This document shows, one piece after another, positions 26,243 to 29,506 of a DNA stretch of 48,859 bases. This stretch comes from an uncultured Neisseriaceae bacterium (lineage in GTDB: Bacteria; Pseudomonadota; Gammaproteobacteria; Burkholderiales; Neisseriaceae). The stretch covers positions 1-48,859 of the forward strand of contig CAMLPN010000013.1 in NCBI GenBank assembly GCA_946481965.1, given 5' to 3'. Every line of letters begins with the position of its first letter. Position 1 is the first letter of the stretch. The notes below the pieces were generated by a model. That model saw only the letters and a program-made list of their open reading frames with translations. It was not told the DNA's origin and did not search any database. The translations under genes were made by a program, and so were the position numbers.

Positions 26243-26878
26243 ATGATTTATCCTGAGACAAACAGCATTAAAACCATCACTCTGGCATTAACTGGTGCGT
26301 CAGGTATGCCTTATGCTAGACGATTACTATCGTGTCTGATTCAGGCGAAAATCAAAGTTTGGTTACTTTACTCTCAAGCTGCTCAAATTGTTGCAAAGCA
26401 AGAACTAAACTGGCTTCTTCCAGCAAACACCAAACAATGTACCGCAACTTTATGTGAAGAATTCTCCATTGATGAGAGCATGCTAACTGTGTTTGGTCGG
26501 GATGAATGGTTTGCTCCGCCTGCTTCCGGTTCAAATCCAGCAGATGCTATGATTATCTGTCCAGCCAGTATGGGTTGTATTGCCGCTATCGCCAATGGTA
26601 CATCTGACCATCTGCTGGAACGAGCTGCCGATGTCTGCATTAAAGAAAATCGTCAACTTATTGTCGTGCCACGCGAAAGCCCGTTTTCAGCCATACATCT
26701 GGAAAATATGCTTAAACTAGCCCGATTAGGTGTTTGTATTTTACCACCATCGCCTGGCTTCTATCTTCAACCAACCAGCATGGCCGATCTGATTGATTTC
26801 GTTGTGGCCAGAATCCTTGACCAATTACATATTCCCCATCAGCTCTGCCAACGCTGGGGCGATAAGCCAGCTATTTAA
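26243..26878 (+). CDS. ubiX: Flavin prenyltransferase UbiX
   Basis: A 211-residue UbiX/Pad1 protein, which prenylates FMN to make the cofactor used by UbiD decarboxylase in ubiquinone synthesis. 'LTGASGMPYARRLL' (about 16-29) is the flavin-binding loop. 'CPASMGCIAAIANGTSDHLL' (about 111-130) and 'VVPRESPFSAIHLENMLKL' (about 146-164) are canonical active-site segments. It has full length. An aromatic attenuator begins about 60 bp after its stop. Confidence 0.96.
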   Translation: MIYPETNSIKTITLALTGASGMPYARRLLSCLIQAKIKVWLLYSQAAQIVAKQELNWLLPANTKQCTATLCEEFSIDESMLTVFGRDEWFAPPASGSNPADAMIICPASMGCIAAIANGTSDHLLERAADVCIKENRQLIVVPRESPFSAIHLENMLKLARLGVCILPPSPGFYLQPTSMADLIDFVVARILDQLHIPHQLCQRWGDKPAI

Positions 26879-26936: not shown

Positions 26937-26966
26937 TTGACAAGCATTCATATAGTCATGTATGGT
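26937..26966 (+). promoter_or_regulatory. Putative promoter of the aromatic leader
   Basis: A perfect -35 hexamer TTGACA at 26937-26942 and a -10-like TATGGT at 26961-26966, spaced 18 bp. The predicted start of transcription falls within a few bases of the leader ATG at 26974, which would make the leader message nearly leaderless. This is a by-eye match and not proven. Confidence 0.5.
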
Positions 26967-26973
26967 AATAAAC

Positions 26974-27051
26974 ATGAAAACTAATACCCACTTCTTTTTT
27001 GCTTATTATTGGTATCACACTTCGGTGCGGTACCTGTTTGCGTTTATTTAA
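26974..27051 (+). CDS. Leader peptide rich in Phe, Tyr and Trp (attenuator)
   Basis: A 25-codon open frame too short for routine gene finding. Residues 7-9 are Phe-Phe-Phe and residues 11-14 are Tyr-Tyr-Trp-Tyr. Later come Tyr20, Phe22 and Phe24. In all, four Tyr, five Phe and one Trp make up 10 of 25 residues, far above chance. It is followed by a hairpin with a UUCG loop overlapping its second half and by an intrinsic terminator. This is the classic layout of phe/trp leader peptides, here covering all three aromatic amino acids. Confidence 0.85.
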   Translation: MKTNTHFFFAYYWYHTSVRYLFAFI

Positions 27052-27084
27052 ATTAAATTTAGTCAAGCAAAAAAGGTAAACCGC
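27011..27084 (+). promoter_or_regulatory. Pause hairpin and alternative antiterminator of the aromatic attenuator
   Basis: Hairpin 1:2 spans 27011-27034: GGTATCACAC, loop TTCG, and a complementary arm ending GCGGTACC (one mismatch, one G:U pair). The 3' arm (27027-27034, GCGGTACC) can instead pair with GGTA (27075-27078) plus CCGC (27081-27084), giving eight base pairs around a two-base bulge. That alternative pairing would occupy the 5' arm of the terminator. A ribosome stalled on the Phe or Tyr/Trp codons would block hairpin 1:2 and favour read-through. Confidence 0.75.
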
Positions 27085-27108
27085 CCGGAGCAACCGAGGC
27101 GGTTTTTT
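27079..27108 (+). terminator. Attenuator terminator
   Basis: AACCGCC plus CGG arm, AGCAA loop, CCG plus GGCGGTT arm with one bulged A, then a U-run. It lies 28 bases after the leader stop and 42 bases before the next gene. Confidence 0.9.
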
Positions 27109-27149
27109 AGTGCCTAAACTGCCTCACGATAATAAAGAAAGACATAGAT

Positions 27150-27731
27150 ATGAAAACAAATCTAAGTGAGAAAAAAATGACTGCCATACGCAACAAGCAC
27201 CAGCAGCACCAAGACATCGCGCCAGTACAGCAATTACAACGCTGGTCTATGATTGTAGACGGTAATCAGCATCATCAGCTTTCGTACTTGTCTCCATCTG
27301 AGTGTACGCATGAATTCATGCTTAGTGAAGCACTAATTCCACAATTACGTTTAATGGCTATACTAATTGCTGCACAAAGACTAAATGATCAACAACCTAC
27401 CCCAGCCATCATCAGCGATGAAGCTGATTGGTTTGCTGCACGCATATTGGTAATGGGAATAAGGGTTTTTCATTTAGATATCACCCTAATTCCCATGTTA
27501 AAAACAGCCAATCTGCGCGCTCGAAAATTTGCTCAACAACACCAACTCGCTTTTACACCCGCACAGATGCGCATGAGCCTGCATGCCGGACGACCGGAAC
27601 GCTTGCTGATTGTGGAAACATCTACGCTAATTAAGTCAGATCTTGGCATAATTCAAAATAGTCTAAACTTCGCTAAATCTGCTTGTTTATCAGAAAGTGA
27701 AATAATCAAACTAACCGCAAATAATACTTAA
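27150..27731 (+). CDS. Unknown protein downstream of the aromatic attenuator
   Basis: 193 residues, with an alternative ATG at 27177 that has GTGAG upstream. I do not recognise a family. The protein has no signal peptide and looks mainly helical, with two amphipathic/hydrophobic stretches: 'SEALIPQLRLMAILIAAQRL' (about 54-73) and 'AARILVMGIRVFHLDITLIP' (about 91-110). A charged region with 'LHAGRPERLLIVE' follows (about 143-155). It is not chorismate mutase, prephenate dehydratase, DAHP synthase or anthranilate synthase by visible motifs. Its position right behind the attenuator implies that its expression responds to aromatic amino acid supply. An 11-bp hairpin follows at 27793-27840. Confidence 0.75.
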   Translation: MKTNLSEKKMTAIRNKHQQHQDIAPVQQLQRWSMIVDGNQHHQLSYLSPSECTHEFMLSEALIPQLRLMAILIAAQRLNDQQPTPAIISDEADWFAARILVMGIRVFHLDITLIPMLKTANLRARKFAQQHQLAFTPAQMRMSLHAGRPERLLIVETSTLIKSDLGIIQNSLNFAKSACLSESEIIKLTANNT

Positions 27732-29506
27732 CTATTGTTTGGTATATAAATTTTAGATTGGCGTTCTAAACATCTGGCTAAATTCATTCAATAAGAGCTT
27801 CTAAAAGAACCGCACTTAAGCTGTTATTATAGAAGCTCTTGGTTTATGCATAAAATTTTCATCGATAGACACAGCTAACTATTTTTATTAAAACTATTAT
27901 TTTTTTTATCTATTTACAGCAGATTTCTCAGACGATAATCCACCTGATCCAACTAAAACCAACTTACGTTATAAATTTTGAAACACCCTTGTGTAAAATA
28001 CCCGATCTATCAAAAGCTCGATTTTGTCCATAGCCATATCTCGTTTACTAATGTGCAAAAAAACTAAATGGATGTTTTGGCAAGATTGAACTGATATTTA
28101 TCAGTTCATAAAGATTAGACTCATAAAATACAAAAAATGATTATTTCATAAAATTTTTTATCCCTTAAAGTAAGCACTAACAAATCATTTATGATTGACT
28201 GAACAAGTGAATATACTAGAGCTACTAAATCTTCTCTAAAATAAATAGAGTTGATCTAAAAAATCTTATCAAAAGTTGCTGGAGCAAAAGAGATAGTTTT
28301 GCCATCATATAGATTAAATTTTGCCAGCCTTGCAGCACAATAAACTTACTTAATCTTCATCAATTCCGAATACATCGTTTCGATTTTCCAAACAGCTATA
28401 GTGAATGTACTTAACTAATGAAAAAAGATTAGCCTGATTCTCGGCACTACCCTGTACCAGCTTAATATCGCTTCTTTAAGTTCAATATCGAGCCTAAATT
28501 GCATCTAACCCTAAAACCAAATGGATCATACTTACGGTCTACCCATATTGATTCAATCGACATTTATCGGACAAGGTTATTGAGTGGTCACATCACGCAA
28601 CTTTTTTCATCACTCATCTATTTATTTACCTTTATCCCATATTCAAAATAGTTCGTAGATGTGTGATTTTTCATAAACTAGATTAGTTAATGAATCTATT
28701 TCATCCTGTAACATTTGGTCTGATTTTGCCAAATTTTTATCTGTATTTTTATTTTAGCGGCGATTTATATGCCTTATTTACCCTTCCACCTCTGTTACGA
28801 TTAATTCTGTAATATGCCAGTGCGTCATTTAACTGTCTGGCATTCATTCGTGTACCTGGGTGTTTGCGACGATCAATTTTTTCCCTGCTCTGTTTCACCA
28901 ACTATCAACGGATAATCTATGGGCACAAACATATCTCTAATGTAAGACAGCGCATAGGTGTGTCGACTCTACCACACGATGGGCAACTGAACTTAGTAAT
29001 CAACCTATTCTCATTGATGAAGCCCACACCACACGTGACTTAAACTTTAACGCACAAAATATCTCAGCCAATCAAATATATAATAGTTTTCTAGCTGCCT
29101 TAATAGCATTTGCTGAAATAATAAGCATTGAGTATTTCATTAGCATTATCCATAATTTCTAAATCAAAACCTTCAATCAATTGTTAACTGATATTTTTGC
29201 TAAGCAGAAGGCAACTACTTATACAGGCAAATAAAATCAATTTATCATTATTTATATTTTCATTGTGCAAGCTTTATTTGTATCAGATTACAGTTATTAC
29301 CATTTATTTTATGACGCATATTCCCATCTCAGATTGCATTCGCATATTGAGCCACTTAGTCACCTGCAAATTCAACAACATTGACGCTATCCAAGATTAT
29401 AATTGCCAGTATAGTTAAAATTAATTGTATAATTGACCCGTATTTTCTATCTTTTCACCTTTTTTCAAATTACCCACACTTCCTCCAAACTCTATTCTTA
29501 GACTTT
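27732..29506. other. Degraded 1.8-kb stretch between the attenuator-controlled gene and pckA
   Basis: No intact gene. An 11-bp inverted repeat (AAGAGCTTCTA at 27793-27803, complement at 27830-27840) closes the upstream unit. On the minus strand between about 28350 and 28960 several short segments still read like protein, for example 'VKYIHYSCLENRNDVFGIDE' and 'KHPGTRMNARQLNDALAYYR', separated by stops and frame changes. The identity of these relics is unknown. Confidence 0.5.

Follow-up and report, generated by a model that had tools for sequence, protein, structure and literature searches.

The analyzed stretch of DNA (48,859 nt, hereafter the window) encodes, on the forward strand, a ubiX-type flavin prenyltransferase (26243-26878; TIGR00421, 2.6e-55), followed by a leader region and a gene for a protein of 193 amino acids (27150-27731). 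We identified a sigma-70-type promoter (26937-26966, forward strand) in which TTGACA (26937-26942) and TATGGT (26961-26966) are separated by an 18-nt spacer and followed, after 7 nt, by the ATG of a leader peptide ORF; the transcription start is predicted. The ORF (26974-27051, forward strand) has 25 codons (MKTNTHFFFAYYWYHTSVRYLFAFI) and ends with TAA. Its frame is common to 38 aligned leaders, and its Tyr-Trp-Tyr is shared by nearly all of them. Within it lies a pause hairpin, P1 (segments 1:2, 27011-27034), with arms at 27011-27020 and 27025-27034, a UUCG loop and a predicted energy of -10.7 kcal/mol; the 5' arm starts inside the Trp codon. Segment 2 may pair instead with segment 3 in an antiterminator (27027-27084). 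Its core joins GCGGT (27027-27031) to ACCGC (27080-27084), is extended in the window by 27032-27034 with 27075-27077, and the arm2:arm3 duplex is valued at -8.9 kcal/mol. Segments 3 and 4 form an intrinsic terminator with six T (27080-27108, -14.8 kcal/mol). A candidate enclosing helix, P0 (26993-27076), would pair the Phe-Phe-Phe-Ala-Tyr-Tyr codons (26993-27008) with the spacer just 5' of the terminator (27060-27076). The P0 coordinates were derived by hand from a duplex calculation, and similar pairing is present in the minimum free energy (MFE) fold.

The 193-aa gene is followed by about 1.65 kb (27732-29380) without a listed ORF of at least 80 aa, up to a PEP-carboxykinase-like ORF (named by eye). 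At another locus (L034), two ORFs of 143 and 181 aa lie downstream of the copy of this gene.

A first-pass annotation of this DNA had proposed an attenuator made up of the TTGACA element, the 25-codon leader, a UUCG hairpin overlapping the Trp codon and a U-run terminator, and we found all of these parts at or adjoining the positions it gave. Folding of the region, which it had suggested as a check, showed that 26960-27115 folds better than 200 of 200 dinucleotide shuffles (z -3.44). No Rfam leader family matched the window above its curated gathering score. Promoter-like sites in the scan numbered 4 (3.0 expected) and terminator-like sites 1 (0.9 expected). Since both are near chance taken alone, the case for an attenuator rests on comparison and conservation.

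Orthologs of the 193-aa gene are present in 79 of the 83 genomes of the Neisseria family. When the window's own genome and relatives were considered (61 genomes), the gene was found in 34, all in one family. Among 399 sampled genomes of the order it occurs in 23, of which 11 belong to the Neisseria family and 12 to a second family, f28. The latter is presumably the Chromobacterium family, as the named relatives outside the Neisseriaceae are two Chromobacterium. The window belongs to a Snodgrassella-like genome; the closest named locus is that of Snodgrassella alvi, whose protein is 94% identical to that of the window.

All 48 loci that were read have an aromatic-rich short ORF upstream of the gene. 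Leader ORFs were picked by the motifs YWY, YWC, YWH, YWR or YYR, which found 47 of the 48; L026 was added by hand. After picking, L053, L054, L060, L066 and L067 were set aside (L053 and L054 have YYYRW in place of YW, and L060 is without a recognised terminator), leaving 43, and removal of five near-identical rows (L007, L008, L009, L011 and L022) gave the alignment of 38 leaders. A covariance model (R1) built on these, used with a cut-off of E up to 0.001, has matches in 77 of the 83 family genomes. As the training set comprises 38 leaders, at least 39 of the 77 matched genomes were new to the model. Each of the 77 has an R1 match on the strand of the gene, at a distance of 33-139 nt before the gene segment that was matched. 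Of the 79 genomes with the gene, 77 thus have the leader directly in front of it; a search for the leader in relatives had been proposed in the first-pass annotation. The two gene-bearing genomes that were missed (G104 and G106) are taken to be those of L053 and L054, whose leader is divergent (FFYYYRWC). No R1 match at E up to 0.001 occurs in the four family genomes that lack the gene, of which one is 81% complete.

The neighbors are more variable. A ubiX-like ORF lies upstream in at least 6 of the 12 loci for which neighbors were listed (names by eye), and bacterioferritin-like (L043), helix-turn-helix-like (L058) and ETF-dehydrogenase-like (L066) ORFs (also by eye) occupy this position elsewhere. 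Downstream ORFs differ among the same 12 loci. As leader and gene form a constant pair while neighbors vary, the target of the attenuator, judged from this linkage, is the 193-aa gene and not ubiX. The idea that the region holds only the ubiX terminator beside a chance aromatic ORF draws on the promoter- and terminator-like sites, whose numbers, taken by themselves, are close to those in shuffles, but it is refuted by the 77 of 79 linkage, which also holds where ubiX is not the neighbor.

The Tyr-Trp-Tyr control codons are near-invariant. Numbering from the codon where the hairpin starts (codon 0), we found Trp at codon 0 in 38 of 38 leaders, Tyr at codon -1 in 37 (31 TAT and 6 TAC) and Tyr at codon +1 in 33. 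Codon -2 is Tyr, Phe or Trp in 32 of 38 and codon -3 is Tyr or Phe in 22. The picking motifs lean the Y-W count upward, although the only locus lost through them is L026, which was restored. A short leader ORF with control codons, kept through the synonymous exchange of TAT and TAC, is therefore a regular part of the locus as judged from sequence alone. Leaders in f28 are again aromatic (11 loci read): seven have YW, as in FNAYFYWYRSSRRLQG, and four (L120-L123) read HAYYYGYRTS, without Trp. As these Trp-less leaders keep Tyr, Tyr is the most constant signal.

The first-pass annotation had read the leader as a sensor of Phe, Tyr and Trp together. The Tyr and Trp part of this claim is borne out by the near-invariance of Tyr-Trp-Tyr (37, 38 and 33 of 38), but Phe codons vary, being found at codons -4, -5, -6 and -7 in 13, 17, 11 and 10 of 38 leaders. 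Joint sensing of Phe, Tyr and Trp is possible; the pattern of conservation speaks for Tyr and Trp. The annotation had also held that known leaders usually respond to one amino acid. Leaders for several amino acids, such as thrL and ilvL, are not exceptional.

The paired elements are likewise kept. Across the 38 leaders, 86.8% of P1 cells and 89.5% of terminator cells are paired. For P1 and terminator combined, 88.0% are standard pairs versus 30-59% in slid controls and 84.9% in shuffles, and cells changed on both sides number 27 versus 10.7 in shuffles. Pairs changed on both sides (4 versus 3.9 shuffled) and pair types (17 versus 17.4) show no excess over letter shuffles. One pair of the terminator occurs as A-U (20 of the 38 leaders) or as G-C (17). 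Thus, of the conserved aromatic codons and covarying stems anticipated in the first-pass annotation, the stems and the Tyr and Trp codons are kept, but the number of pairs changed on both sides is no higher than in shuffles. For the five-pair antiterminator core, the paired share is 95.3%, versus 30-64% in slid controls and 93.6% in shuffles, in agreement with the earlier claim that the hairpin's 3' arm has an alternative partner in the terminator's 5' arm. The antiterminator hardly varies, so covariation provides no further test of it. Alignment pairing and folding both indicate that 1:2, 2:3 and 3:4 are mutually exclusive. The diverged version in f28 has the same plan in other sequence (FNAYFYWYRSSRR), with an alternative pairing of GGCGGC with GCCGCC.

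In 17 of the 38 leaders, at least five T follow hairpin 1 (as in TACTTTTTTGCG), and these also read Phe-Phe. Hairpin 1, with such a T run within the leader ORF, may serve as a first terminator or pause.

We modelled a ribosome on 19 leaders, with an assumed footprint that extends from 15 nt on the 5' side to 12 nt on the 3' side of the first nucleotide of the A-site codon. When the A site holds codon -1 or codon 0, all 19 leaders have a predicted arm2:arm3 pairing of at least 0.86 (codon 0 of L120 is Gly); for codon +1 this level is reached in 18 of 19, the exception being L028. A ribosome that covers arm 2 gives a value of 0, which follows from the set-up of the model. With no ribosome, pairing is at most 0.1 in 13 of 19. 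Two leaders have 0.40-0.48, and another four, in which folding does not discriminate, have 0.80-0.99; the window's leader, at 0.91, is one of these four. A ribosome at the stop codon leaves arm2:arm3 pairing of at least 0.5 in 5 of 19. In transcripts that stop 12 nt past arm 2, at which point arm 3 does not yet exist, stalls at codons -1 and 0 both reduce the pairing of arm 2 with upstream sequence to at most 0.20 in only 8 of 19 leaders, and in the window it stays at 0.80. Equilibrium folding with a stalled ribosome therefore supports attenuation in most of the modelled leaders, although not for the window's own copy, for which hairpin 1:2 must be assumed to form first.

P0 bears on the role of the Phe codons. 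The FFF run of the window (26992-27000) ends 10 nt before the hairpin, and could thus act only through this probable enclosing helix. The leader would be a true three-amino-acid sensor if stalling at Phe codons also caused antitermination, the Phe codons being the 5' strand of a P0 that holds 1:2 in place. We give this close to, but below, an even chance. The P0 duplex has a z of -3.29 in the window and a mean of -1.70 over the 38 leaders, with values below -2 in 17 and below -1 in 25, and in L004, L005, L013 and L017 a stall at upstream Phe codons raises the predicted arm2:arm3 pairing to 0.94-0.97, versus 0-0.02 without a ribosome. However, a stall at the two early Phe codons of L003 gives 0.01, and in L027 the first Phe gives 0.00 and the second 0.63. 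Moreover, 13 of the 38 leaders have z above -1, four of them positive, P0 was chosen post hoc from the MFE fold of the window and compared with single-base shuffles only, and each of codons -7 to -4 is Phe in only 10-17 of 38 leaders.

The promoter geometry points to a probable leaderless start, a feature absent from the first-pass annotation. Of 54 loci from two families, 35 have an exact TTGACA at a distance of 35-39 nt on the 5' side of the leader ATG; among 4469 control ATGs of the same loci, 0.85% have an exact TTGACA at 30-45 nt. The count of 54 includes near-identical loci, leaves out L060 and L114 and excludes L119, L121, L122 and L124, the last of which was not recovered by a picking motif. 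The hexamer most like a -10 box in the 35 loci, which frequently carries 2-3 mismatches, ends 6-11 nt before the ATG (7 in the window), so the predicted transcription start coincides with the AUG or is only a few nt away from it. An attenuator RNA that starts at the trpL ATG is described for Sinorhizobium meliloti (PMC7298713).

It is also conceivable, although unlikely, that transcription starts further upstream, giving a normal 5' UTR with a ribosome-binding site. In 15 loci examined further, an exact TTGACA is found 66-88 nt before the ATG in 11, TTGACT in one and neither in three. Lineages thus differ in having a 5' UTR, and versions of this kind probably exist in some of them. The -10 boxes on which the leaderless reading depends are also best-match picks, many with 2-3 mismatches. 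Against a general 5' UTR stand the exact near-position TTGACA in 35 of 54 loci of two families and, in the window, the absence of an AGGA- or GGAG-like site just 5' of the ATG (by eye).

A short RNA that opens with a leaderless ORF is reminiscent of rnTrpL of Sinorhizobium (PMC7298713). By analogy with peTrpL/rnTrpL, the leader peptide or the terminated RNA could act in trans, with attenuation secondary, and the peptide is well conserved. We consider this quite improbable, as the hairpin encoded by the codons past the control codons can account for their conservation, and the peptides SYWYRTSRAGLMCAW, YYWHSPRAVRF and YYYGYRTSLAAPG differ past the control codons.

The function of the target protein is less clear than its regulation. 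No Pfam or NCBIfam family matches it, and a sequence search of the PDB returned no relative below E 0.08 (best E 0.084); thus, membership in a known family was rejected. In a library of viral structures, the best match to its model has an E of 0.36. AlphaFold models were made for the window protein (pLDDT 83.4) and for an f28 ortholog (L113, pLDDT 80.6; 27% identical to the window protein); the two share most alignment rows and are not fully independent. Among the Foldseek PDB matches listed, tryptophanyl-tRNA synthetase (TrpRS) accounts for 48 of 50 and 49 of 50 for the two models, the exceptions being a designed esterase. Best E values are 4.7e-3 (window) and 6.6e-4 (L113), with TM-scores by query of 0.32-0.37 and 0.33-0.54, mostly below 0.5. 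Many L113 alignments to TrpRS are at 16-19 A rmsd, and a few are at 4.5-5.4 A over 130-155 columns.

Profile comparison by hhalign gave no significant homology to either TrpRS or TyrRS: P values against TrpRS were 0.017 and 0.019 (probability 2.6 and 2.5%), confined to one helix-strand-helix segment in register with AADIL...VPVG.DQ of TrpRS, and P was 0.035 against TyrRS and 0.49 against UbiC (4 sequences). Residues invariant in 37 members are E63, P67, R70, A73, A77, R80, D97, A100, A101, R102 and R127 (L113 numbering). Neither HIGH nor KMSKS was found in the 37, except for KMSA at two N-termini. In a comparison set of 17 TrpRS, itself picked by a KMSK/A motif, HIGH-like sequences are present in 16 and KMSKS in 17. 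From the models, the target likely has a core resembling the Rossmann core of TrpRS but without catalysis, and may be a repurposed synthetase.

A role as a replacement for chorismate lyase (UbiC) beside ubiX was also considered. UbiC (PF04345) is found in 32 of the 61 genomes, and 10 of the family's 12 genera have it, so this was rejected as a general role. In the window's genus (g1), a UbiC match was found in only 2 of 14 genomes, and UbiC there is divergent or missing.

Taken together, we interpret the locus as a ribosome-mediated transcription attenuator sensing charged tRNA-Tyr and tRNA-Trp, and possibly tRNA-Phe, to which we assign a probability of roughly 0.84. Transcription would begin at the leader AUG or beside it, with ribosomes loading on the 5' end. 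With aromatic tRNAs charged, the ribosome would pass YYWY and arm 2, and arm 2 would either be covered or return to the re-formed 1:2 hairpin. The 3:4 terminator would then form, and only an RNA of about 135 nt would be made. If Tyr or Trp were short, a ribosome stalled on Tyr-Tyr-Trp-Tyr would cover arm 1 and free arm 2 for pairing with segment 3, the terminator's 5' arm, and the polymerase would continue into the 193-aa gene.

The first-pass annotation had suggested a sensor of the common aromatic pathway or of general aromatic supply; the target is instead a conserved gene whose modelled fold is TrpRS-like. Its probably non-catalytic product may act when charging of aromatic tRNAs fails. 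More tentatively, and at less than even odds, we suggest a Neisseriales-wide stress switch, in which a mostly leaderless Tyr/Trp/Phe attenuator controls a single-copy, catalytically dead relative of TrpRS. This protein would have a regulatory or sensory role, directed at tRNA, TrpRS or aromatic supply, and would not be an enzyme of amino acid synthesis. Attenuators of the ribosome-mediated kind usually precede genes of obvious role. Here, a leader and a gene without a Pfam or NCBIfam name are kept together in 77 of 83 Neisseria-family genomes despite changes of neighbor. Because the leader codons show what the gene probably answers to, a shortage of Tyr or Trp, its function is directly testable.

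Related leaders precede other genes in the family. Away from the 193-aa gene, three R1 matches have E up to 0.001: two lie before trpB and one (G063) is not a leader. A Trp leader (MNTQNFFWRNWQLHFGAAHDCAVC) with hairpin and terminator precedes trpB (by eye) in two g10 genomes (L172 in G099 and L173 in G065). Eleven matches with E above 0.001 were read, and those in G055, G039 and G018 look real while the other eight look like chance. Two further weak matches are in G027, before trpS, and in G033, without a synthetase ORF. The leader in G018 (L155, MNLPAPLFTFARWQGLHL) also precedes trpS, its relative in G027 is L169, both genomes are of genus g6, and TTGACA is close 5' of the ATG; the R1 scores of the trpS cases are weak (E 0.07 and 0.21). 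These trpB and trpS leaders share arm 2 GTGCGG, terminator arm ACCGC and a similar layout with the leaders described above, but have Trp codons without the Tyr cluster. Codon content thus follows the target.

Two of the weaker matches lie before biosynthetic genes named by eye. In G055 (L156), a leader (MTNRLFSAYWRWHLP) and terminator precede a trpD-like gene of the trp operon. In G039 (L157), a multi-aromatic leader (MTSVIAHSFYAFFGFFAWYWQAAEEGCA) and terminator precede a DAHP-synthase-like gene, for the first enzyme of the common pathway.

In E. coli trpL, control codons lie at the start of segment 1, the 1:2, 2:3 and 3:4 pairings are mutually exclusive, and the terminator ends in a U run. 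The leader described here shares all of these features, but has Tyr-Trp-Tyr instead of Trp-Trp, a non-biosynthetic target and no Rfam match, and its probable leaderless start and candidate enclosing helix P0 are departures from this textbook case. E. coli pheM is a Phe leader before pheST, which encodes active synthetases. Both systems have an aromatic leader controlling a gene of the tRNA-charging type; unlike PheST, the product here is without HIGH or KMSKS. We found no account of this leader or its gene in the accessible parts of the literature (including PMC2965389, PMC8632094, PMC7298713, PMC4176332 and PMC4423775), subscription papers being mostly outside the search. The trpL/rnTrpL RNA of Sinorhizobium meliloti shares the start at the leader ATG, but its target is trpE(G) and its peptide has 14 aa (PMC7298713). 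The uORFC-13-1 motif, likened here by its description only (PMC8632094), also has a Phe-coding uORF next to a terminator, but precedes the DAHP synthase gene aroF. The class to which the leader belongs, ribosome-mediated attenuation, is known. What sets this member apart is its Tyr-Trp-Tyr code, together with a probable leaderless start, a candidate additional helix and a target with a predicted TrpRS fold.
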